Of a stretch of 42,796 nt of DNA, positions 5,212 through 17,170 are shown piece after piece (positions within the stretch are counted from its first letter, which is position 1; each line of letters begins with the position of its first letter). Made by a program: the position numbers and the translations under genes. Source of the stretch: Desulfobacula sp. (GTDB lineage Bacteria > Desulfobacterota > Desulfobacteria > Desulfobacterales > Desulfobacteraceae); contig NZ_JABZFL010000036.1 in assembly GCF_014237455.1 (NCBI RefSeq), positions 1 through 42,796 of the forward strand, written 5' to 3'. Below the pieces are notes generated by a model. The model did not search any database. It was given only the letters and a program-made list of their open reading frames with translations, and had not been told where the DNA came from.

Positions 5212-5289
5212 GTGCCCCATTCATTATTTCTTTATAATTTTAACGACTTAGCAGGCAAACCAATATCAACCAAAGGAGATGATTCATGA
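5212..5289 (+). other. possible 25-codon leader reading frame before acs
   Basis: A GTG at 5212 opens a frame of 25 codons whose TGA overlaps the acs ATG as ATGA, an arrangement seen in translational coupling. The GGGAGGT at 5204-5210 is only one base from the GTG, which is too close for efficient initiation, so real translation is doubtful. The acs gene has its own good ribosome site. Confidence 0.15.
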
Positions 5290-7322
5290 GCAAAAAACAA
5301 GATGAAGTTGTCGAAACCACTGAGGCCCAGATAGCTGTTCACTGGAAAGAGGAAGACTATTATTATCCATCCACAAAATTTATTGCTCAGGCCAACCTCA
5401 CCGATGAAGGAATTTTTGACAGGTTCAGTCTGGATAATTTTCCGGATTATTATACAGAATTTGCTGAACTGCTGACATGGTACAAGTACTGGGACGAAGT
5501 ACTGGATAGCAGTGACGCCCCCTGCTACAAATGGTTTAAAGGCGGAAAACTTAATGCCAGCTACAATTGTATTGATCGCCATTTAAAAGACAATAAAAAT
5601 AAAACTGCCATCCATTTTGTTCCTGAACTGGAGGAAGAACGCGTTCAGCATATCACCTACCAGGAACTGTATGTAAGAGTGAATGAATTTGCAGCCTTGT
5701 TAAGGGATACGGCAAAACTTAAAAGAGGGGACCGGGTCACCATCCACATGCCCATGTCGGCGGAACTTCCCATTACCATGCTGGCCTGCGCAAGATTAGG
5801 TGTGATTCACTCGGTTGTTTTTGGTGGATTTTCAGCCAGTGCCAGTGCTGACAGAATCGTTGATTCCCAGTCCAGAGTTTTGATCGTTACGGATGCTTAT
5901 TACAGGGCAGGGAAGCTTCTTAATCATAAATTCAATGCTGATGAAGCAGTTAAAATTGCCGAAGACCAGGGACAGACAGTTGATACAGTACTGGTATGGC
6001 AGAGATATCCGGGTAAATATTCTTCTGAAACCCCCATGGTTGAAGGAAGAGATATTTTTGTAAATGAAAAATTAAAAGACTATTATGGTGCCAGGGTTGA
6101 ACCCGAACAAATGTTGAGTGAAGATCCTCTCTTTTTAATGTATACCAGCGGGACCACGGGCAAACCCAAAGGCTGCCAGCATGGTACCGGCGGATACCTT
6201 GCCTATGTGACGGCAATGTCAAAATACATTCAGGATATTCATCCTGAAGATGTTTACTGGTGCATGGCAGATATCGGATGGATCACAGGTCACTCCTTCA
6301 TTGTTTACGGCCCGCTTGCCCTGTGTGCCTCTTCTGTGATTTTTGAAGGGGTCCCAACCTATCCGGATGCGGGTCGATCCTGGAGAATTGCCCAGGAGCT
6401 TGATGTCAACATTTTCCATACCGCACCCACCGCCATCAGGGCTTTAAGGAAACTGGGTCCGGATGAACCCGCCAAATATAACTATCATTTCAAACACATG
6501 ACCACCGTTGGTGAACCCATCGAACCGGCTGTATGGAAATGGTATGAATCTGCAGTCGGCAAGGGAGAAGCTATTGTTGTTGACACCTATTGGCAGACAG
6601 AGAACGGCGGATTCCTCTGCAGTACCGTGCCGGCTCTCAAACCCATGAAACCGGGCAGTGCAGGTCCTGGTGTTCCCGGTATCCATCCGATTATCTTTGA
6701 TGATGAGGGCCATGAGGTTGCCGAGCCCGGTATTGCAGGTAATATCTGTATCCAGAATCCCTGGCCCGGCATGTTCCAGACCATCTGGGGTGACAGGGAC
6801 AGGTTTGTTGATACTTACTTTGCAATGTATAATACAAAACCAGACAGTAAAGACTGGAGAGACTGGCCATACCTGACCGGTGATGCAGCCACCATGTCCG
6901 AAGACGGCTATTACAGGGTCCTTGGAAGAATTGATGATGTCATCAATGTATCCGGTCACAGACTGGGCACCAAAGAAATTGAATCGGCATCCCTGGTTGT
7001 GGATGAAGTTGCAGAAGCCGCAGTTGTACCGGTTGCCCATGAAATTAAAGGCAAGGAACCTGATCTGTATATTGCGCTTAAGCCTGGCATCCCTGCAACG
7101 GATGAACTGGCGCAGAAAATTTCAGACGCCATATGTGAGCAGATCGGGAGAATTGCCAAACCCAGAAAAGTATGGCTGGTTCCGGATATGCCCAAAACAA
7201 GGTCAGGAAAGATTATGCGAAGGGTGCTGGGTGCTATCTCCAATAAAGGTGATGTGGGTAATGTCATGACACTTGCTAATCCGGAAGTTGTAGAAGAAAT
7301 CAAAAACATGGTTCAAAAATAA
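5286..7322 (+). CDS. acs: acetyl-CoA synthetase (AMP-forming)
   Basis: The 678-residue enzyme makes acetyl-CoA from acetate, ATP and CoA through acetyl-AMP. The N-terminal linker region (residues 1-120) is typical of the family. The P-loop-like YTSGTTGKPKG begins near S288, the TVGEPI box keeps the Val that lines the acetate pocket, and W436 in TYWQTENGG matches the Trp that limits acyl size. Residue 440 is Asn where TETGG is usual. GRIDDVINVSGHRLGT marks the hinge and A8 region, and PKTRSGKIMRR contains K642, the Lys that is acetylated for control in other species. AAGGAG lies before the ATG. It starts the acetate/propionate cassette, 35 nt ahead of prpE. A cytoplasmic enzyme for acetate assimilation or for activation before oxidation. 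Confidence 0.93.
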   Translation: MSKKQDEVVETTEAQIAVHWKEEDYYYPSTKFIAQANLTDEGIFDRFSLDNFPDYYTEFAELLTWYKYWDEVLDSSDAPCYKWFKGGKLNASYNCIDRHLKDNKNKTAIHFVPELEEERVQHITYQELYVRVNEFAALLRDTAKLKRGDRVTIHMPMSAELPITMLACARLGVIHSVVFGGFSASASADRIVDSQSRVLIVTDAYYRAGKLLNHKFNADEAVKIAEDQGQTVDTVLVWQRYPGKYSSETPMVEGRDIFVNEKLKDYYGARVEPEQMLSEDPLFLMYTSGTTGKPKGCQHGTGGYLAYVTAMSKYIQDIHPEDVYWCMADIGWITGHSFIVYGPLALCASSVIFEGVPTYPDAGRSWRIAQELDVNIFHTAPTAIRALRKLGPDEPAKYNYHFKHMTTVGEPIEPAVWKWYESAVGKGEAIVVDTYWQTENGGFLCSTVPALKPMKPGSAGPGVPGIHPIIFDDEGHEVAEPGIAGNICIQNPWPGMFQTIWGDRDRFVDTYFAMYNTKPDSKDWRDWPYLTGDAATMSEDGYYRVLGRIDDVINVSGHRLGTKEIESASLVVDEVAEAAVVPVAHEIKGKEPDLYIALKPGIPATDELAQKISDAICEQIGRIAKPRKVWLVPDMPKTRSGKIMRRVLGAISNKGDVGNVMTLANPEVVEEIKNMVQK

Positions 7323-7357
7323 TAAAATTATCCGCTGAAATTTTGGGAGGTTATTCT

Positions 7358-9259
7358 ATGTCCAATTTGTATGACCAAGCGTATGATCAATCCATAAATG
7401 ATCCTGATGGATTCTGGGGAGCTATTGCTGAAGACTGCCACTGGTATAAAAAATGGGATAAAGTACTGGATGATTCAAACAAGCCGTTCTACAGGTGGTT
7501 CACAGGTGGAGAAACAAACACCTGTTACAATGCGGTTGATCTTCATGTGGAGAATGGCCTGGGTGATCAGGATGCCATTATCTATGACAGCCCGGTAACA
7601 GGTACCATCAGAAAATATACCTATTCTAAGCTTAAAGAGATTGTTGCAGAATTTGCCGGGGTTCTGGCATCTAAGGGAGTCGGCAAGGGTGACAGGGTTG
7701 TTGTTTATATGCCCATGATCCCGGAAGCAGTTTTTGCAATGCTGGCCTGTGCCAGGATCGGGGCTGTCCATTCTGTGGTATTCGGCGGATTTGCAGCCAA
7801 TGAGCTGGCCACCCGTATTAATGATGCCAAACCCAAAGTAATTGTATCGGCATCCTGTGGTATTGAGGTGAAAAAGGTCATTGAATACAAGCCGCTTTTA
7901 GATGAGGCCATTGAATTGTCCGATTCCAAACCTGATGCCTGTATTATTTTACAAAGGCCCCAGGCCAAAGCAGAGTTGATAGACGGCCGGGATTTTGACT
8001 GGAATGATGAAATGGCAGCAGCCGTCCCTCATGATTGTGTTCCTGTAAAAGCCACTGATCCGCTTTACATCCTTTATACTTCCGGCACAACAGGTGAGCC
8101 CAAAGGGGTTGTAAGAGATAACGGCGGACACATGGTGGCTTTAAAATGGACCATGTCAGCCATTTACGGGGTTGACGCGGGTGATGTATACTGGGCAGCC
8201 TCAGATATTGGTTGGGTCGTAGGCCATTCATATATTGTCTACGGCCCCCTTCTTAAGGGATGTACCACCATTCTTTTTGAAGGAAAGCCTGTCGGGACTC
8301 CTGATGCCTCTGTGTTCTGGAGAATTATATCCCAGCATAAGGTTAACACCCTTTTTACGGCTCCCACAGCATTCAGGGCCATTAAAAGGGAAGATCCAAG
8401 TGCTCAAATGATGCGGGATTTTGACCTGTCCTGCTTTAACTATCTGTTTCTGGCAGGTGAAAGACTGGACCCGGACACATTGACCTGGGCAGAGAATGCT
8501 CTAAAGATACCGGTAATTGATCACTGGTGGCAGACCGAAACCGGGTGGGCCATTGCAGCTAATTGTGTCGGGATTCATCAATTTGACGTCAAACCGGGAT
8601 CTCCTACAAAAGCGGCTCCGGGATGGAATCTGGCCGTTCTGGGAGATGACGGAAACCCGATTGGTGCAGGAGACATCGGTGCTATTGTCGTCAAACTGCC
8701 CCTGCCTCCGGGCACACTGCCCACGCTCTGGCAGAAGGATCAAAGATATATCGATTCCTATCTGAGCGTGTTCCCCGGATACTATGAAACTGCTGATGCA
8801 GGATTTATTGATAAAGATGGCTATGTCTTTGTCATGGCCAGAACAGATGACATTATCAATGTTGCCGGCCACAGGCTGTCCACCGGCGGCATGGAAGAAG
8901 TCATTGCAGAACATCCGGATGTGGCCGAGTGTGCGGTCATGGGCGTTGCAGACCAGCTCAAAGGCCAGATACCCCTTGGGATGATGGTATTGAATGCCGG
9001 TGTTGACAAAGACCATGCACAGGTGGTCAAAGAAGTCATTGGCCTGGTCAGAACCAAGATCGGGCCGGTTGCTGCGTTTAAAACAGCCACTGTGGTCAAG
9101 CGGCTTCCCAAAACAAGATCCGGTAAAATCTTAAGGGGAACCATGCGGGCCATTGCAGATAAAAAAGATTATAAAATCCCTGCTACTATTGATGATTACA
9201 CCTCTCTGGATGAAATCGAAGAATCCTTAGGGAAAATCGGATATGGCAACAAGGCATAA
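7358..9259 (+). CDS. prpE: propionyl-CoA synthetase (AMP-forming)
   Basis: The 633-residue protein is an acyl-CoA synthetase closer to PrpE/ACSS3 than to Acs. It has YTSGTTGEPKG, the PrpE-like FLAGERLDPDT, DHWWQTETGW and HRLSTGGMEEV boxes, and the catalytic K590 in PKTRSGKIL. It should activate propionate and perhaps acetate or butyrate; substrate choice cannot be fixed from sequence. The ATG at 7358 is chosen because GGGAGG lies at 7345-7350; an in-frame TTG at 7343 overlaps that site and is unlikely. It shares only family-level identity with the preceding acs, so this is a paralogous pair rather than a recent duplication. No prpBCD genes are nearby. Confidence 0.88.
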   Translation: MSNLYDQAYDQSINDPDGFWGAIAEDCHWYKKWDKVLDDSNKPFYRWFTGGETNTCYNAVDLHVENGLGDQDAIIYDSPVTGTIRKYTYSKLKEIVAEFAGVLASKGVGKGDRVVVYMPMIPEAVFAMLACARIGAVHSVVFGGFAANELATRINDAKPKVIVSASCGIEVKKVIEYKPLLDEAIELSDSKPDACIILQRPQAKAELIDGRDFDWNDEMAAAVPHDCVPVKATDPLYILYTSGTTGEPKGVVRDNGGHMVALKWTMSAIYGVDAGDVYWAASDIGWVVGHSYIVYGPLLKGCTTILFEGKPVGTPDASVFWRIISQHKVNTLFTAPTAFRAIKREDPSAQMMRDFDLSCFNYLFLAGERLDPDTLTWAENALKIPVIDHWWQTETGWAIAANCVGIHQFDVKPGSPTKAAPGWNLAVLGDDGNPIGAGDIGAIVVKLPLPPGTLPTLWQKDQRYIDSYLSVFPGYYETADAGFIDKDGYVFVMARTDDIINVAGHRLSTGGMEEVIAEHPDVAECAVMGVADQLKGQIPLGMMVLNAGVDKDHAQVVKEVIGLVRTKIGPVAAFKTATVVKRLPKTRSGKILRGTMRAIADKKDYKIPATIDDYTSLDEIEESLGKIGYGNKA

Positions 9260-9279: not shown

Positions 9280-9303
9280 GGGGACAGATTTAAACCTGTC
9301 CCC
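9280..9303. repeat. REP-like GGGGACAG palindrome
   Basis: GGGGACAG at 9280-9287 pairs with CTGTCCCC at 9296-9303 around an AT-rich loop; the pairing extends by three A-T pairs beyond one mismatch. Palindromes of this wording are, to my knowledge, dispersed repeats in sulfate-reducing Desulfobacterota genomes, linked to REP-type Y1 transposases. Here it sits between prpE and the symporter gene, where it could attenuate or stabilise the operon message. It is the only copy in this window. Confidence 0.6.
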
Positions 9304-9419: not shown

Positions 9420-11207
9420 ATGGAACCGAAAACTTGGGTATTTCTAATGTTAGGAATATACATTATTTATTGTTTCTGGTGGGGTTTAAAAGGTTTTTTT
9501 ACGGAAAAAACCGCATCAGGCTATGGAATTGCAGGGCGTTCCATCCCTTTTATAGCATTTTTGATGGCCGCAACTGCTGCTTCCTTTTCCGGGTGGACAT
9601 TTGTAGGGCATCCAGGTTTGATCTGGAAGGTGGGGCTGGTATATGCTTTTGCCTCGTTCTATGTCTTGACCATTCCCATTACAGGAGCGTTCTTTGCTAA
9701 AAGAAACTGGCTCATGGGCAAACGCTACGGCTTTATTACCCCGGGTGATATGTTTGCATATTACTATAATAATGAATTTATTCGATGGTTGACTGTTCTG
9801 GCAGCACTTTTATATTCAATCTTTTATTCAGGCATTCAGCTGATCGCAGCATCAAAACTATTTTACTGGGTAGCCGGCGTTCCACCGACCATTGGTCTGA
9901 TATTCATGGCCTTTATTGTATGGTTCTATGTGGTCACCGGTGGTCTTAAAGCCAGTACCTGGGTAGGCGTTCTCCAGTTTGTGCTTTTGGTCGGCGGTAT
10001 TATACTGTTAGGGTTTTATGTTGTCACATCCGAGGTTTTTGGCGGATGGTCCGGCATGTCAAAGTCTTTAGCGGCCCTTCCTCCTAACTTTACGCAAGTG
10101 CCGGGGATTATCCATTTTGGTATCGGAGGCGGCTGGACTGCGGTGATGGTCTTGACCTATATGTTTGCTCTTATGGGTATTCAGTCATCACCGGCTTTTA
10201 TTCTGTGGAACTTTGGTATTGCATCTCCTAAACCTTTGGCATGGCAACAGGTTTTCATGTCAACATTTGTTGTCGGGGTTTGTTTGTTTTTCTTTTCAGC
10301 TTTCCAGGGAATGGGTGCTAAAATTCTCGAGCTGTCTGGTGAAATGATCATTGCCAATAACGGAGATGTTGTCCCTAAACTCATGACAAAATTCTTACCA
10401 GGACCTATCCTGGGCCTTGTTTTCCTTGGCGCCATTGCAGCCATCCACTCCACCTCCGCTCCCTATATCGGTACCGGTGGTACCATCATCCAGAGAGATG
10501 TCTGGTGGAGATATGTCAGAGGCCAGAAAGGGTCTCATAGTGAACAGATCTGGACCAACCGGGTCATGGCAACCCTCCTAACAGCAGCTGCGGTGGTGGT
10601 GAGTCTCACCTCATCGGATGCCATTGTTATGATCGGCGGGTTTGCAACGACCTTTGGCACCATTATGTACCTGATGCTCTGCGGTGTTCACTGGGGTTTT
10701 AAATTTCCCAGCACTGGCGCAGCCCTAGGCCTTGCTGTCGGTATTGCCGTCAACATGTTAACCTATTTTGTCTGGAAATATCCCTTATCAATGCATACGG
10801 CATTCTGGGGCATTTTTGCAGGGTTTGCCGTGGCATACGGCTGCCGCGGACTTGGATTCAAAAACACTGAAGAAACCGATGCCCGCCAAAAAGAAGTCAG
10901 AGAATGGCTTGACAGTATTGACGGACCTTCTGAAAGTGGCAAAATATGGCGTGCCAGGATGAAAATTATTATTCCGATATGGTATTTCTTTGCTCTTGGC
11001 CCTGCTATTATGCTGGGGAACAATGCATTCTCCTTTTGCGGATTTCCAGCCCTATGGTCATGGCAGATTGTCTGGTGGATCGTTGGTATTATCATGATGT
11101 GGGCTCTTTGCTTCAAAGCTGAAATGTCTACCACTTCTGAAGAACAGATCAGACGTGCAGATGTTGAAACCATGGATGTAACCAAAGAAGCAGATGATAT
11201 GGCATAA
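9420..11207 (+). CDS. sodium:solute symporter (SSS family), probable acetate/propionate uptake
   Basis: The 595-residue protein is a polytopic membrane transporter with roughly 13 hydrophobic segments. The SSS core is recognisable in GYGIAGRSIPF, TAASFSGWTFVGHPG and the VTGGLKASTWVGVLQF segment around TM5, which corresponds to the Gly-Gly-Leu signature of the family. The C-terminal tail after the last segment is charged and short, with no kinase or STAC domain. Position behind acs and prpE suggests sodium-driven uptake of acetate or propionate, as with ActP, but the substrate is inferred from neighbours. GGAGG lies 10 nt before the ATG. A further AGGAGG at 9317-9322 upstream leads only to an abortive two-codon frame, so no gene lies between prpE and this one. 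Confidence 0.85.
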   Translation: MEPKTWVFLMLGIYIIYCFWWGLKGFFTEKTASGYGIAGRSIPFIAFLMAATAASFSGWTFVGHPGLIWKVGLVYAFASFYVLTIPITGAFFAKRNWLMGKRYGFITPGDMFAYYYNNEFIRWLTVLAALLYSIFYSGIQLIAASKLFYWVAGVPPTIGLIFMAFIVWFYVVTGGLKASTWVGVLQFVLLVGGIILLGFYVVTSEVFGGWSGMSKSLAALPPNFTQVPGIIHFGIGGGWTAVMVLTYMFALMGIQSSPAFILWNFGIASPKPLAWQQVFMSTFVVGVCLFFFSAFQGMGAKILELSGEMIIANNGDVVPKLMTKFLPGPILGLVFLGAIAAIHSTSAPYIGTGGTIIQRDVWWRYVRGQKGSHSEQIWTNRVMATLLTAAAVVVSLTSSDAIVMIGGFATTFGTIMYLMLCGVHWGFKFPSTGAALGLAVGIAVNMLTYFVWKYPLSMHTAFWGIFAGFAVAYGCRGLGFKNTEETDARQKEVREWLDSIDGPSESGKIWRARMKIIIPIWYFFALGPAIMLGNNAFSFCGFPALWSWQIVWWIVGIIMMWALCFKAEMSTTSEEQIRRADVETMDVTKEADDMA

Positions 11208-11419: not shown

Positions 11420-13522
11420 ATGAAGCAGACCAACCGATTCTGGAAAATTATTTTTGTTACCCTGTTTACAACAATGGTTGTTATCAGCGGTATTTTATTT
11501 TTTTTATGGCAGACATTGACTGAAGAACAAATTCATGCTGTCACTACCATCACCAACGATCATTCTTTATATATTATCAGCGCTATTTTTATTTTTGCTT
11601 TTGTAGCATTTGCCGGGCTTGAATTTATATTTATTGCCTATATTGAGCCGTTGAAAAAAATTTCTGCCGAAGCCTCCATGATTTATTCATCTAACCCTTC
11701 CCACCGGTTAAACATTACGGGTAACAAGGATATTAAAAATCTATCATCTGTTATCAATGATTTTGCAGATATGTTTGAAAACCTGAACAAAAACATTACC
11801 CAACAGATACTGGTTGCCAGAAAAGAGACTGAAAAAGAAAGAAATCTTTTGGCTGCCATCATGGCTGAACTCCCCCAGGGGGTTATTATCTGTAATACAA
11901 GCGGCAGAATTTTATTGTTTAATTCCCTTGCAAAAAAAATATTTACAAAAGAAACCAGTTCAAACACAGCTGAATATTTTATCGGGCTTGGCAGATCCAT
12001 ATTTCACCTGATTGATAAGGAACTAATTGCCCATGCCGTTGAAGAAATTGAAGAACATCTGAATAACGGCAGACAGAGTGTGGCCTCTTATTTTTTTACC
12101 CCTATTTATACCGGACGCTTGATCAGCATTGAAACCACACCTGTCCTTGATCAGAGTAATCTGATGACCGGTTTTATTCTTACGTTCCAGGATATGTCGG
12201 ATGATATTGACCGGTATGAGAATATCAATCAAACTCTCTTGTCTTTTAAACAAATGCTGGGCAACAATATTTTACAGGAAGGATCGGTTGTCAGCGATAT
12301 AGTCAAACAGACGGATAAAGAGCTTTCCAGGGATTTTAAGCTCATTAACGAGAAATACCTTCATATGTCCAGTTTTATTCTTGATTCAACATTGAATAAA
12401 CTGCCTTTAACGACCCTCTCTCTGAGCTATTTTCTTTCTTCTCTACAAAAAAGGCTGTGGGATGAGAATGGGATAAATCTCAATTTATTGAATAATGACA
12501 CTGACACACGGATCTTGGCAGACACCTATTCATTCACCGTGGCACTTGTTTTTCTCCTGGTAAATTTATCAGAATTCACTACACAAAATGAATTTGATCT
12601 GGAAACTTCAACACAAAAAAAAGAAATCTGGTTTGATATAAAGTGGCAGGGGAATACTGCAAGTCCACCCCAGATTAAAAATATACTTTCAAAAAAAATA
12701 AGAGGGTTGCCTTCCTTTGGATATGTTCTAAAGCAGAACAGGGCTGAATTTGAAATTATTGCACACAACAATCAAGCCTGTTCACAGGTCAGGATTAAAG
12801 CAAAATCCCAATTAAAATATTCCTCTACCAGGGAAAACAGACCTGCTGTAATGGCAGCAAGCAGACCGGAGTTTTATGATTTTGATCTTTTTGATATTAA
12901 AGATGCAAATTTTGATCTTCTGGACACCAGTTTAAAAAATATCACCTACACGGTTTTTGATACTGAAACAACCGGCCTGAACACGGATGGCGGTGATGAG
13001 ATTATCGCCATCGCTGCCGTAAGAATTGTCAACAATAGAATCGTATACCAGGATATTTTTGAGGAACTGGTGGACCCGAAAAGAGATATCCCTATGGAAT
13101 CTTATAAAATTCATGGTATTAATTATGAAATGGTGGCCGGGAAAAAGGATATCAACACGATTTTACCTGTATTTAAAAAATTCACTTCAGACACGGTGTT
13201 TGTGGGGCATAATATCGCTTTTGACATGAAGATGTTGAAAAACAAGGAAAAGGCCACCCATATTAAATTTCTAAACCCCGTACTTGATACGCTTCTTTTA
13301 TCTGCAATTTTGCATCCCCTCCATGAACAACATGATATGGAAAATATTGCAAAACGCCTGGGGGTTAATATTATCGGAAGGCACACAGCCCTTGGGGATG
13401 CCATAGCAACAGCAGAAATTTTTTTAAAATTGCTCCCCATTTTAAACAGCAATGGAGTCCTGACCCTCAAAGATGCCATTAAGGCATCTAAAAAAACTTA
13501 CTATTCACGATTAAAATATTAG
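11420..13522 (+). CDS. membrane PAS/degenerate sensor-kinase protein fused to a DnaQ-like (DEDDh) exonuclease
   Basis: The 700-residue protein has two membrane spans (about 9-31 and 49-72), a HAMP-like linker, a coiled stretch and a PAS domain (about 145-255). A region at about 270-460 resembles the end of a sensor kinase: it has an N-box-like ALVFLLVNLSEF but no phospho-acceptor His or clear ATP-binding G boxes. Residues 505-700 form a 3'-5' exonuclease of the DnaQ family with all five catalytic residues: D514 and E516 in FDTETTG, D602 in HNIAFDMK, H655 and D660 in HTALGDA. Separate DnaQ-like and DUF294 proteins accompany acetate symporters in other proteobacteria, for instance pseudomonads, and kinase-like sensors regulate acs there. 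Here sensor and nuclease are one chain. Only a weak GGA precedes the ATG. Substrate and signal are unknown. Confidence 0.82.
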   Translation: MKQTNRFWKIIFVTLFTTMVVISGILFFLWQTLTEEQIHAVTTITNDHSLYIISAIFIFAFVAFAGLEFIFIAYIEPLKKISAEASMIYSSNPSHRLNITGNKDIKNLSSVINDFADMFENLNKNITQQILVARKETEKERNLLAAIMAELPQGVIICNTSGRILLFNSLAKKIFTKETSSNTAEYFIGLGRSIFHLIDKELIAHAVEEIEEHLNNGRQSVASYFFTPIYTGRLISIETTPVLDQSNLMTGFILTFQDMSDDIDRYENINQTLLSFKQMLGNNILQEGSVVSDIVKQTDKELSRDFKLINEKYLHMSSFILDSTLNKLPLTTLSLSYFLSSLQKRLWDENGINLNLLNNDTDTRILADTYSFTVALVFLLVNLSEFTTQNEFDLETSTQKKEIWFDIKWQGNTASPPQIKNILSKKIRGLPSFGYVLKQNRAEFEIIAHNNQACSQVRIKAKSQLKYSSTRENRPAVMAASRPEFYDFDLFDIKDANFDLLDTSLKNITYTVFDTETTGLNTDGGDEIIAIAAVRIVNNRIVYQDIFEELVDPKRDIPMESYKIHGINYEMVAGKKDINTILPVFKKFTSDTVFVGHNIAFDMKMLKNKEKATHIKFLNPVLDTLLLSAILHPLHEQHDMENIAKRLGVNIIGRHTALGDAIATAEIFLKLLPILNSNGVLTLKDAIKASKKTYYSRLKY

Positions 13523-14229: not shown

Positions 14230-16104
14230 TTGAAAAAAGAATCACAGACGTATCCGTTCTCAGTGCTTTCAAAACAAGACCAGGAGGAATTGACCCCTGC
14301 GTTTTCCTATGAAAAAGTCAAGAAAGACACTGTTCTTTTTGAACAGGAAATCACAAGAGTTGAAAAACTCTATATCCTCTCCAAGGGCCATGCCCAATAC
14401 TATTATGAGCTGAACAATACAAAAGTACTGACCGGAGAAGTGAACATCGGAGATAATTTTGGCGGACTTTCAATTCTATTGAACGATGCGGTTTCCATCA
14501 GATCTTTAAAAATTCTTGAAGATTGTATTTTTATAACACTTAAAGCAGATATTTTTTTAAGCTTATGCAAGGCAAATCCAAAGTTTCAAGATTATTTCAC
14601 CAATGAATTCGGCAAATGCATGCTGAACAAATCCTTTGCCGGCATCATTTCAAGACGGATAAAAGACAAGGAATTTAACCTGCCCTTTTTCAATCGACCC
14701 ATCCGGACCATTTTTCAACCCAATATTATCACCTGCCCAATGGAAACCAGCATTGAAAATGCTGCCATTAAAATGAACCGGAACAATGCCAGTGCTATTT
14801 TGATAAAAAAAGACAGGCGAACCATTCAAGGTATTGTCACTGATGCAGACTTAAGGAAAAAAGTGATAGCAACACATATGGATCTGTCCCAGCCTGTCTC
14901 AACTATCATGTCATCCCCCCTTATCTCTATTTCAGCTGATAGTCAGGTATTTGAAGTGTTTTTATCTATGATTGAAAATGATAAAAGACATTTGGCTGTT
15001 TATGGCCAATCAGGCGATATTACCGGTATCGTCAGTGAAAAAGATCTTATATCCGCCCAGACAAAATCAACCTATCTTCTGATAAAAACCGTTAAATCCG
15101 CCAAGACCATTCAGGAAATTGAAAATATTCATTCAAAGCTTGAAAAAATGCTTCTTGATCCCATAAAAAATGGTGCCAGTCCTGAATACATCACGCGCCT
15201 GATCACTACATTTTCAGATGCAATAATTGATAAGATCATAAGATTCTCCCTTGATAAAATGGGCCCCGCACCTTGTAAATTTGTATTTTTAACCATGGGG
15301 TCGGAGGGCCGTGAAGAACAGACCCTGATATCTGACCAGGATAACGCCATTGTCTATGAAGACGGGCAACACCCTGAAAAGGCAAAAAAATACTTTGACA
15401 AACTTTCACAACTCATCTGCGATCAGCTGGATATGACAGGATACAGGTTTTGTGACGGCAATAACATGGCAAAAAACCCGAAATGGTGTCAACCTTTATC
15501 CAAGTGGAAAAAATATTTCAACACCTGGATTCGAACCTCAAATCCGGAAAATCTTCTTCATTCCAGTATATTTTTCGATTTCAGGGGGACCTGGGGAGAC
15601 ATGGCCCTGGCAGATGACTTAAAAGAGTATCTTTTGAGTGCCATAGGAAGCTGGGCCGGGTTTTTAAGAAATCTCACAGAAAATGCGGTTTATTTTAAAC
15701 CACCCATTGGTCGGTTCGGCAAACTGATAGTAAAAACTCAGGGCGAGCACAAAGGGTCTCTGGATATCAAACTGGGCATGCTGCCACTCACTGATTTTAT
15801 AAGGGTTCATGCCCTTAAAAACGGTATTTCTCAAACCAACACCTTGACACGGCTGTTCAGACTCTACACCCGGCATGCAATAACCAGCAAAGAATACACG
15901 GATATTATCAGGGCCTATAACTATATGATGCAATTAAGATTCATGCGACAGATCACCACCATTATGGATGAAGAAAAGAGCCCTGATAATTATATCAATC
16001 CCCATAATCTTTCCGCCCTGGATCAAACCATGCTAAAAGAAATTTTTAAAATGATTGAAAAACTTCAACGAAACCTGGACGTTGAATTCACCGGAGTTGT
16101 TTAA
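14230..16104 (+). CDS. cNMP-binding / CBS-pair / DUF294 nucleotidyltransferase-like protein
   Basis: The 624-residue protein has an N-terminal cyclic-nucleotide-binding-type beta barrel (about 10-140), two CBS domains (about 165-280) that usually sense adenine nucleotides, a GlnD-like nucleotidyltransferase domain (DUF294) and a helical C-terminal domain. The nucleotidyltransferase site is well kept: GSEGREEQTLISDQDN starts at G357, with D369 and D371 as the metal ligands. No target is known; by analogy with GlnD it may modify a protein in response to energy state. The start is TTG at 14230, with GGG 10 nt upstream and no other Met before residue 130. Proteins of this build sit beside acetate symporter genes in other proteobacteria, matching the neighbourhood here. 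Confidence 0.88.
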   Translation: MKKESQTYPFSVLSKQDQEELTPAFSYEKVKKDTVLFEQEITRVEKLYILSKGHAQYYYELNNTKVLTGEVNIGDNFGGLSILLNDAVSIRSLKILEDCIFITLKADIFLSLCKANPKFQDYFTNEFGKCMLNKSFAGIISRRIKDKEFNLPFFNRPIRTIFQPNIITCPMETSIENAAIKMNRNNASAILIKKDRRTIQGIVTDADLRKKVIATHMDLSQPVSTIMSSPLISISADSQVFEVFLSMIENDKRHLAVYGQSGDITGIVSEKDLISAQTKSTYLLIKTVKSAKTIQEIENIHSKLEKMLLDPIKNGASPEYITRLITTFSDAIIDKIIRFSLDKMGPAPCKFVFLTMGSEGREEQTLISDQDNAIVYEDGQHPEKAKKYFDKLSQLICDQLDMTGYRFCDGNNMAKNPKWCQPLSKWKKYFNTWIRTSNPENLLHSSIFFDFRGTWGDMALADDLKEYLLSAIGSWAGFLRNLTENAVYFKPPIGRFGKLIVKTQGEHKGSLDIKLGMLPLTDFIRVHALKNGISQTNTLTRLFRLYTRHAITSKEYTDIIRAYNYMMQLRFMRQITTIMDEEKSPDNYINPHNLSALDQTMLKEIFKMIEKLQRNLDVEFTGVV

Positions 16105-16121: not shown

Positions 16122-17108
16122 CTATCTCAGATGGCCGGACAGATGTATCTGCTTTCCATTTCTATAAATTAAAAGTAATATTTCCCCGCCGGATTCTGTA
16201 TTCTTAATTTCTTCTACAAGCACCTGAGGTTCGTTTGTGACCTTATTGTTGACTGCAAGAATAAGGTCCTGTTTTTGTACTCCCATCTCCTGAGCCAAAC
16301 TATTTTCAGCTATTTTCAGGACAACAATACCTTCCTTTTTATCAAGGCCCAAGGTCTTCATATGTTCCTGGGTCAATGGTGCGATTGTTACCCCAAGACG
16401 CTCTTTCCCTGTGAACTGGCCTATACTATGAGTATTGGCGGGACCTTTTTTTATCTGGAGAACCTCTGGACCGTTCGACTCGACCTTGACCTCCAGTTTT
16501 TGCCCTGTATTTGTCTCGAAATAAGGTCTTCCGGCAGCAATTATATGGGGTAGCGCAATCCGTAAATCAGAAGTACTTCCTTCGCTTTTCAAAGTGGTTT
16601 TCCACACTTGAGAATGGTTTTTTGAGTCATAGGCCTCTAAGATTAAAAATCTCGCATACGTCGTTTTTTTGGTTGTTACTGTCTCTGTTGTAGGCGGCAC
16701 ATGTACCCATGTCCACCCGACCGGGTAGCTGTATCCGCCGGAAGTCGTATAAGTGTTGGTGGAGGTCTCTGTTTTAGGACTCCCTATCCCATATGCCATG
16801 CGGACAAGCAGATCTGCGCCTTCTTTATTGGTTACACGGTTGTATCCTTTCTGTGACAGGGCATTTCCTACATACCTTGCAAACTCTTTGAATTGCAGGT
16901 CGTTATCGCTGACATTTTTCATGGCGGATGATATGATATAAGTCTTGCCTTTTAAATCGGCGCCGGTATCAGCTATCGAGTCAACTGATACATGGTAATA
17001 GTTACGGGGTGCTACATAGGGAGTAGGAGTGGTAGCACACGCAGTTAACAATAGAGTAAATATGGTAAAAATACCTGAAATTAATACAGCAGTCTTTATT
17101 CTTTTCAT
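16122..17108 (-). CDS. PDZ-domain lipoprotein with DUF4136-like region
   Basis: The 328-residue protein carries a lipoprotein signal with lipobox LTAC at C24. Residues about 35-215 resemble the DUF4136-type envelope domain, with a Thr/Tyr/Pro-rich insert around 120-145. Residues about 235-328 form a PDZ domain (RLGVTIAPL, GIVVLKIAENSLAQEMGVQ, DLILAVNN). It is probably anchored in the outer membrane facing the periplasm; no protease domain is present. The ATG at 17108 is chosen because GGAGGAAAC lies directly before it; an upstream in-frame ATG would add 12 charged residues before the signal peptide. It converges with the DUF294 gene, whose stop lies 17 nt away. Confidence 0.8.
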   Translation of the reverse strand: MKRIKTAVLISGIFTIFTLLLTACATTPTPYVAPRNYYHVSVDSIADTGADLKGKTYIISSAMKNVSDNDLQFKEFARYVGNALSQKGYNRVTNKEGADLLVRMAYGIGSPKTETSTNTYTTSGGYSYPVGWTWVHVPPTTETVTTKKTTYARFLILEAYDSKNHSQVWKTTLKSEGSTSDLRIALPHIIAAGRPYFETNTGQKLEVKVESNGPEVLQIKKGPANTHSIGQFTGKERLGVTIAPLTQEHMKTLGLDKKEGIVVLKIAENSLAQEMGVQKQDLILAVNNKVTNEPQVLVEEIKNTESGGEILLLIYRNGKQIHLSGHLR

Positions 17109-17170
17109 GTTTCCTCCAGTCTTGTTTCCTCTTTTTTTAATCAAGTTTCAAGTCGATTTTCAGTCGGTTA

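Follow-up and report, generated by a model that had tools for sequence, protein, structure and literature searches.

A predicted sensor–pseudokinase–exonuclease receptor encoded with a DUF294 nucleotidyltransferase in an acetate/propionate cassette of Desulfobacula

Genes of the cassette

We analysed a stretch of 42,796 nucleotides from Desulfobacula sp. (contig NZ_JABZFL010000036.1; hereafter, the window). One of its genes encodes a protein, here called P0001, that an initial annotation made from the sequence alone had described as a sensor with a degenerate kinase module fused to a DnaQ-type exonuclease. It lies in the following cassette:

5286–7322, + strand: acs, acetate–CoA ligase (TIGR02188, 756.4 bits; cut-off 724.95)
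7343–9259, + strand: propionate-CoA-ligase-like (prpE-like) acyl-CoA synthetase (best NCBIfam match PRK10524, 755.5 bits, below the cut-off of 955)
9420–11207, + strand: SSS-family symporter (PF00474, E 3.1e-32)
11420–13522, + strand: putative sensor–pseudokinase–exonuclease (P0001), a single ORF of 700 aa
13591–14205, + strand: LemA-family protein (PF04011, E 1.9e-13)
14230–16104, + strand: cNMP-CBS-DUF294-DUF294_C nucleotidyltransferase-like protein (PF00027, PF00571, PF03445, PF10335)

The acetate setting proposed in the initial annotation is borne out, as an acetate/propionate cassette. The order acs, prpE-like, SSS, P0001, LemA, DUF294 is common to many genomes of the genus and, with losses, extends to the family and order. 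Within the host genus, the symporter had no match in the cassettes of loci L040, L129, and L131. LemA had none in those of L038, L040, L129, and L131. The DUF294 protein of the window carries GSEGREEQTLISDQD, which we take to be an intact nucleotidyltransferase (NTase) signature. Scans for promoters (34 found, 26.2 expected, sd 4.9) and for terminators (18 found, 11.6 expected, sd 3.7) gave numbers little above chance and lend no support to operon limits, and Rfam identified one tRNA in the window and nothing else.

The gap separating the SSS gene from the prpE-like gene contains an inverted repeat of ten pairs (9280–9303), which on the minus strand has a T run like that of a terminator. The LemA gene, which separates the sensor from DUF294, matches the MamQ (magnetosome) model weakly (27.2 bits, cut-off 250). 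Convergent to the cassette, on the minus strand, lies a gene (16122–17144) whose DUF4136 product ends in a PDZ domain.

Domain architecture of P0001

We divided P0001 into the following parts:

11438–11653, + strand: two membrane helices, aa 7–34 and 47–78, with a short loop between them (hydropathy, AF2 helices)
11642–11809, + strand: HAMP-like/signalling-helix linker, about aa 75–130 (NarQ, Tsr, and VicK aligned there by the family profile)
11849–12196, + strand: PAS domain, aa 144–259 (PF00989, E 1.1e-06)
12197–12394, + strand: DHp-like helices lacking the phospho-acceptor His, aa 260–325 (profiles, alignment, AF2, Foldseek)
12410–12811, + strand: CA-like (HATPase-shaped) domain, aa 331–464, with W409 and N382 (profiles, alignment, AF2, Foldseek)
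12860–12892, + strand: linker motif SRPEFYDFDLF, aa 481–491 (conservation in the 101-row alignment)
12947–13459, + strand: DEDDh 3'-5' exonuclease domain, aa 510–680, with D514, E516, D602, H655, and D660 (Pfam, Foldseek, alignment)

Pfam matched the PAS domain (aa 144–259) and RNase_T (aa 512–668) and left the middle region empty: searched with P0001 alone at E ≤ 1, HisKA, HATPase_c, and HAMP gave no match. At the same threshold, 4 of the 61 family members matched HAMP and 7 matched HisKA. The AF2 model has a pLDDT of 85.5 and a pTM of 0.78, with low confidence at aa 281–300, in the DHp-like part. The chain contains no symporter domain, and its N-terminal membrane part consists of the two helices. 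Together, the Pfam matches and the alignment of the family profile with VicK uphold the domain order first proposed (membrane spans, HAMP-like linker, PAS, kinase-like region, exonuclease).

A kinase-like region that keeps the fold and lacks signature residues

The middle region was identified by profiles built from the family. The 61-sequence profile aligned with VicK (PDB 4i5s) over profile positions 53–480 (E 1.6e-28), and likewise with ThkA, ZraS, DivL, and others; the kinase shape of P0001 is therefore real. A profile of the kinase region (40 sequences) retrieved 17 PDB sequences at E ≤ 0.01, of which 12 are histidine kinases (best E 1.7e-11) and five are helical designs or unrelated proteins. 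Structure comparisons point the same way. With the full model, Foldseek matched WalK/VicK-type kinases with E values down to 2.1e-19; TM-scores are low (0.15–0.22 of the query, rmsd 16–28) because the domains are oriented differently or because the match is partial. The kinase region alone matched ZraS, DivL, and CpxA, and its CA part matched the CA domain of VanS (139 columns, rmsd 3.6). Profiles and Foldseek thus both place a DHp + CA histidine-kinase fold in this family. P0001 shares with WalK/VicK-type kinases this fold and the order HAMP-PAS-DHp-CA but has lost the H-box and the G1 box and gained an exonuclease.

We scored residue conservation in an alignment of 101 sequences, one of them P0001. 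At the H-box position, none of the 88 non-gap rows has a His; Glu (31), Asp (19), Gln (13), Arg (7), and other residues occur instead. The Asp of the G1 box (DxGxG) is replaced by Trp in 89 of 93 rows, including P0001 (W409). In the N-box column, Asn is found in 14 of 93 rows; P0001 is among those that keep it (N382) and may therefore retain residual nucleotide binding. The GTGLGL-like G2 stretch (ATP lid) of three active kinases falls in an inserted segment to which the family profile has no counterpart, and no GxG loop was found. The phospho-acceptor His reported missing in the initial annotation is thus missing from all 88 rows, and the refuting combination of an intact H-box and ATP-binding boxes was not found. 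The sole His of P0001 within aa 255–335, H315, is a Gln in an orthologue that is 92% identical (L032). The H-box is unrecognisable in P0001 and still visible in distant relatives, e.g., LTEGSRAALANIRAAVE.

From these columns, kinase function looks long dead across the family, as a prediction. A decayed kinase of one lineage is ruled out by the 88 of 88 non-gap rows without the H-box His. Tethered exonucleases without a kinase-like region also exist (L104 and L168/L169 types), and the region is therefore dispensable in those proteins. Such a family of conserved pseudo-histidine kinases, whose nucleotide pocket contains a Trp, would be useful to study in signal transduction.

An intact exonuclease domain and a conserved linker motif

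The C-terminal domain is clear-cut. RNase_T (PF00929) matched P0001 with 123.6 bits (cut-off 24, E 1.6e-35) and was found in all 61 family members. The five catalytic residues described as intact in P0001 are invariant in the alignment, with 98–100 non-gap rows for each among the 101. Foldseek matched the exonucleases of PolC, DnaQ, and DinG with rmsd of about 1.5–2.3; for PolC, E values go down to 1e-12, with an rmsd of 1.5. P0001 shares with these enzymes the DEDDh fold, the five residues, and membership of the broad epsilon-subunit family TIGR00573 (91.4 bits, cut-off 71.5). It differs from them in being tethered to a sensor, and its chain lacks both a polymerase and a helicase. We rejected its assignment as DnaQ proper: although it passes TIGR00573, it falls below the cut-offs of the equivalog models TIGR01406 (97.2 versus 222.7 bits) and PRK05711 (90.6 versus 196).

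Just upstream, the motif SRPEFYDFDLF ranks among the most conserved segments beyond the active site (R482 in 93, D487 in 91, F488 in 93, and L490 in 91 of 101 rows), and it sits in a stretch of low AF2 confidence. A loose version of the pattern occurs in 79 of 107 fused exonucleases and in none of 29 stand-alone ones. It is found in tethered forms with and without the kinase region, and, altered, in the DUF294 chimera described below. It is possibly a docking or switch element. We also considered a beta-clamp-binding motif. Clamp motifs start with Gln; here, Asp stands at the expected place in 91 of 101 rows, and a form of the motif is kept in the chimera, which lacks the exonuclease. This candidate was rejected.

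Distribution and genetic linkage

Matches to P0001 (E ≤ 0.001) were found in 47 of 58 genomes, its own included, many of the weak ones being merely PAS or DnaQ domains. In an even sample of the phylum, 45 of 247 genomes match at E ≤ 1e-20: as read from the individual matches, 21 have tethered forms (open frames of 470–1185 aa) and 24 have stand-alone exonucleases only. A scan of named genomes confirmed at least 335 relatives, from which 80 loci were kept; 20 of these either were put aside or contain forms that are short, cut, or stand-alone. Titles among the matches listed include Desulfobacteraceae, Desulfuromonadales, Beta-, Gamma-, and Alphaproteobacteria, Magnetococcales, Nitrospirota, and Acidobacteriota, as well as MAGs of Caldilineaceae and Flavobacteriales. 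A search of viral contigs gave no match. The architecture recurs across Alpha-, Beta-, Gamma-, and Deltaproteobacteria, with some occurrences in a small number of further groups. It is not peculiar to this genome, nor is it the product of recent decay. The P0001-type family is real, old, and conserved.

We counted neighbours in flanks of up to 9 kb around the named loci; since many flanks end at contig ends, the presence counts are lower bounds. Among the 80 loci listed, a DUF294 nucleotidyltransferase gene is found in the flank of at least 63, an SSS symporter in at least 47, and acs in at least 26; DUF294 was not seen in the available flank of the remaining 17. PF03445 matches 1–4 times per genome, often weakly, in 37 of 38 related genomes, so, by our rough estimate, the chance of meeting DUF294 in a 20-kb stretch is a few per cent.

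At least 28 of the 80 loci listed also have an ORF for an SSS-type histidine kinase (CrbS/CbrA class), 27 of them within 600 bp. This count is based on the symporter half alone, and a profile including the kinase domains gave 31. The Pfam SSF model does not match the host-genome example (L122, 5272–8091); we recognised the class because its symporter half matches PDB 10ED (E 1.8e-67), while HisKA and HATPase_c both match, intact, in its C-terminal half. According to PMC13022988, 10ED is the SLC5-STAC part of CbrA. Like P0001, SLC5/STAC histidine kinases (CrbS, CbrA, RpuS) occur in carboxylate loci, and an ORF of this class lies within 600 bp in at least 27 of the 80 loci listed. Unlike them, P0001 lacks the symporter domain and the phospho-acceptor His, and its predicted output is an enzyme instead of phosphotransfer. 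The one-chain fusion beside a symporter, on which the initial annotation was centred, is thus real and recurs in relatives. It belongs to a widespread family, it often has a symporter-type kinase close by, and its symporter neighbour is absent from some cassettes of the genus, so this part of the early picture had to be revised.

Stand-alone exonucleases beside DUF294

We examined all 29 stand-alone exonuclease matches of the 247-genome sample with their neighbourhoods. A full DUF294 gene is near 19 of them, mostly adjacent, as counted match by match; the other ten have no counted DUF294 gene in the stretch. Counted in the same way, a gene of the acs type occurs in 13 cases and one for SSS in 12. 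Elsewhere, exonuclease and DUF294 are thus separate neighbours, as the initial annotation stated. In the midpoint-rooted exonuclease tree, one clade (SH 0.991) unites the 19 DUF294-linked proteins with two more sequences; the tethered forms make up a second clade (0.939), and a third (0.923) consists of eight plain exonucleases. The presence of DUF294 beside both of the first two clades shows that the link is common to tethered and free exonucleases. Two loci (L139:2734–6638 and L140:6228–10117) have a stand-alone exonuclease between two different DUF294 genes, with SSS adjoining, and in L140 also acs.

A chimera in which DUF294 replaces the exonuclease

The best clue lies outside the window. 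The host genome encodes a second, soluble protein related to P0001 (748 aa; G000:C26, L122:8553–10799) that has the order PAS, kinase-like region, linker, DUF294-DUF294_C, so that DUF294 stands where P0001 has its exonuclease. BLAST aligns it with P0001 over 404 columns (E 3e-25), and its HisKA score (26.0 bits) is just below the Pfam cut-off of 26.9. We found ten copies (L122, L123–L130, and L133). Aligned with P0001-type proteins, they keep the linker up to 'ELSYT', immediately before the first exonuclease strand, and then continue into DUF294. Confirmed chimeras occur in 10 of 26 genomes of the genus, with a fragment in an eleventh (G019); the 32 other genomes among the 58 gave no match of this kind, and G000 is the one genome of the 247 in the phylum sample with a full-length match.

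The NTase part of the chimera is 45.8% identical to residues 284–623 of the window's DUF294 protein and 59% identical to the DUF294 of G037, from another family of the order. Its source is therefore probably a different or an earlier version of the cassette. Among relatives at the level of the order (L024, L027), the sensor-exonuclease and DUF294 genes overlap or abut, which suggests that a deletion between such neighbours could create the chimera.

An SSS-kinase-like ORF lies near the chimera in seven of the ten copies, six of them 84%–94% identical or identical over the symporter half; none was found near it in L127, L129, and L130. The chimera of the host genome also adjoins a receiver-only protein, and that of L129 lies about 2.6 kb from the main cassette, on the same contig.

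Proposed function and alternatives

We consider it roughly 60% probable that P0001 is a pseudo-histidine-kinase receptor with an exonuclease output, paired with DUF294 in the acetate/propionate cassette. The argument at the level of sequence combines the architecture, the family-wide loss of the H-box His and the G1 Asp, the intact exonuclease residues, the linkage to DUF294, SSS, and acs, and the exchange of effectors in the chimera. From it we infer that kinase activity is absent, that the signal is relayed in a dimer, that the sensor controls the exonuclease, and that exonuclease and nucleotidyltransferase share a target. Several observations weigh against this reading: the 17 named loci and ten stand-alone exonucleases with no DUF294 gene seen nearby, the cassettes of the genus in which SSS is not seen, the tethered exonucleases that lack the kinase-like region, the N-box Asn of P0001, and the low TM-scores of the full-model kinase matches. 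In this model, a signal (acetate, the state of the symporter, or a cytoplasmic PAS ligand) would alter the PAS/HAMP dimer of a membrane-anchored receptor; the DHp-CA pseudokinase would relay the change through the linker without phosphate transfer, and the DEDDh exonuclease would be released or blocked. Exonuclease and DUF294 nucleotidyltransferase would form one regulatory device serving the cassette for acetate/propionate uptake and activation. In receptor guanylyl cyclases, too, a dead kinase-like module connects the input at the membrane to an enzyme as output; P0001 would share with them the kinase-homology relay and differ in its unrelated kinase fold and its output enzyme. It appears to be an enzyme-output receptor on a histidine-kinase frame, within a little-studied acetate module.

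Since the same relay is joined either to the exonuclease or to the nucleotidyltransferase, and since acetate cassettes contain both enzymes whether or not the relay is present, a shared target is suggested. The nucleotidyltransferase is linked by gene or by chain to the predicted removing enzyme: by gene in at least 63 of the 80 named loci listed and in 19 of the 29 stand-alone cases, and by the shared sensor in the chimera. Our boldest reading, put forward tentatively, is a writer–eraser chemistry with a logic like that of GlnD/GlnE. DUF294, controlled by cNMP/adenylate, would attach nucleotides to a target that is either protein or RNA, and the PAS-pseudokinase-controlled DEDDh exonuclease would remove them; effectors could be swapped on the relay, as in the chimera of this genus. 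Such a system, undescribed, might exist in many Proteobacteria.

The exonuclease might instead degrade a small nucleotide that serves as a signal or arises as an end product (pGpG, nanoRNA, a linear dinucleotide) and so tune a second-messenger circuit of acetate metabolism, with no link to DUF294 chemistry. RNase T and ERI-type enzymes share the DEDDh fold in the Foldseek matches, and the DUF294 neighbour has cNMP-binding and CBS domains. We find this unlikely, because the closest profiles and structures are those of PolC, DnaQ, and DinG, and because the repeated pairing with DUF294 and the effector swap would be left unexplained. It is less probable still that the kinase-like region continues to serve a response regulator, as its phosphatase or by handling phosphate in some other way, and that the exonuclease is an accessory. 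The variety of residues at the His position, with no single one conserved, and the Trp at the G1 Asp in 89 of 93 rows speak against it, even if SSS-type kinases are frequent neighbours (at least 28 of the 80 loci listed), the structure matches include DivL (PDB 4q20, whose title calls it a tyrosine kinase), and N382 is kept in P0001. An ordinary DNA-maintenance exonuclease (Pol III epsilon-like), coincidentally tethered to the membrane in acetate users, is highly improbable given the failed equivalog models and the linkage to acetate genes, despite the DnaQ/PolC-type domain and the TIGR00573 match.

If the receptor reading of P0001 is true, a dead histidine kinase would serve as a built-in relay that switches a nuclease, and carbon uptake would be tied to a pair of nucleotide-adding and nucleotide-removing enzymes. 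The pairing would also give a direct experimental handle on the DUF294-type protein under CrbS/R. Pflu5625 of Pseudomonas fluorescens has a cNMP-CBS-nucleotidyltransferase make-up like that of the window's 14230–16104 gene product; PMC5715377 reports that its abundance rises on acetate under CrbS/R, mentions a mutant lacking a phenotype, and leaves the target open. A search for the words exonuclease and nuclease in that text found neither, word searches of PMC5436829 and PMC9100948 gave no match, and exonucleases go unmentioned in the CrbS/R-type papers searched by word. We found no description of a sensor-exonuclease fusion in the accessible open-licence literature, and one may exist outside that scope.

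Tethered forms longer than P0001 also occur (L165:6488–9892 and L166:7285–10497, with open frames of 1134 and 1070 aa); their length would accommodate additional input domains ahead of the exonuclease.
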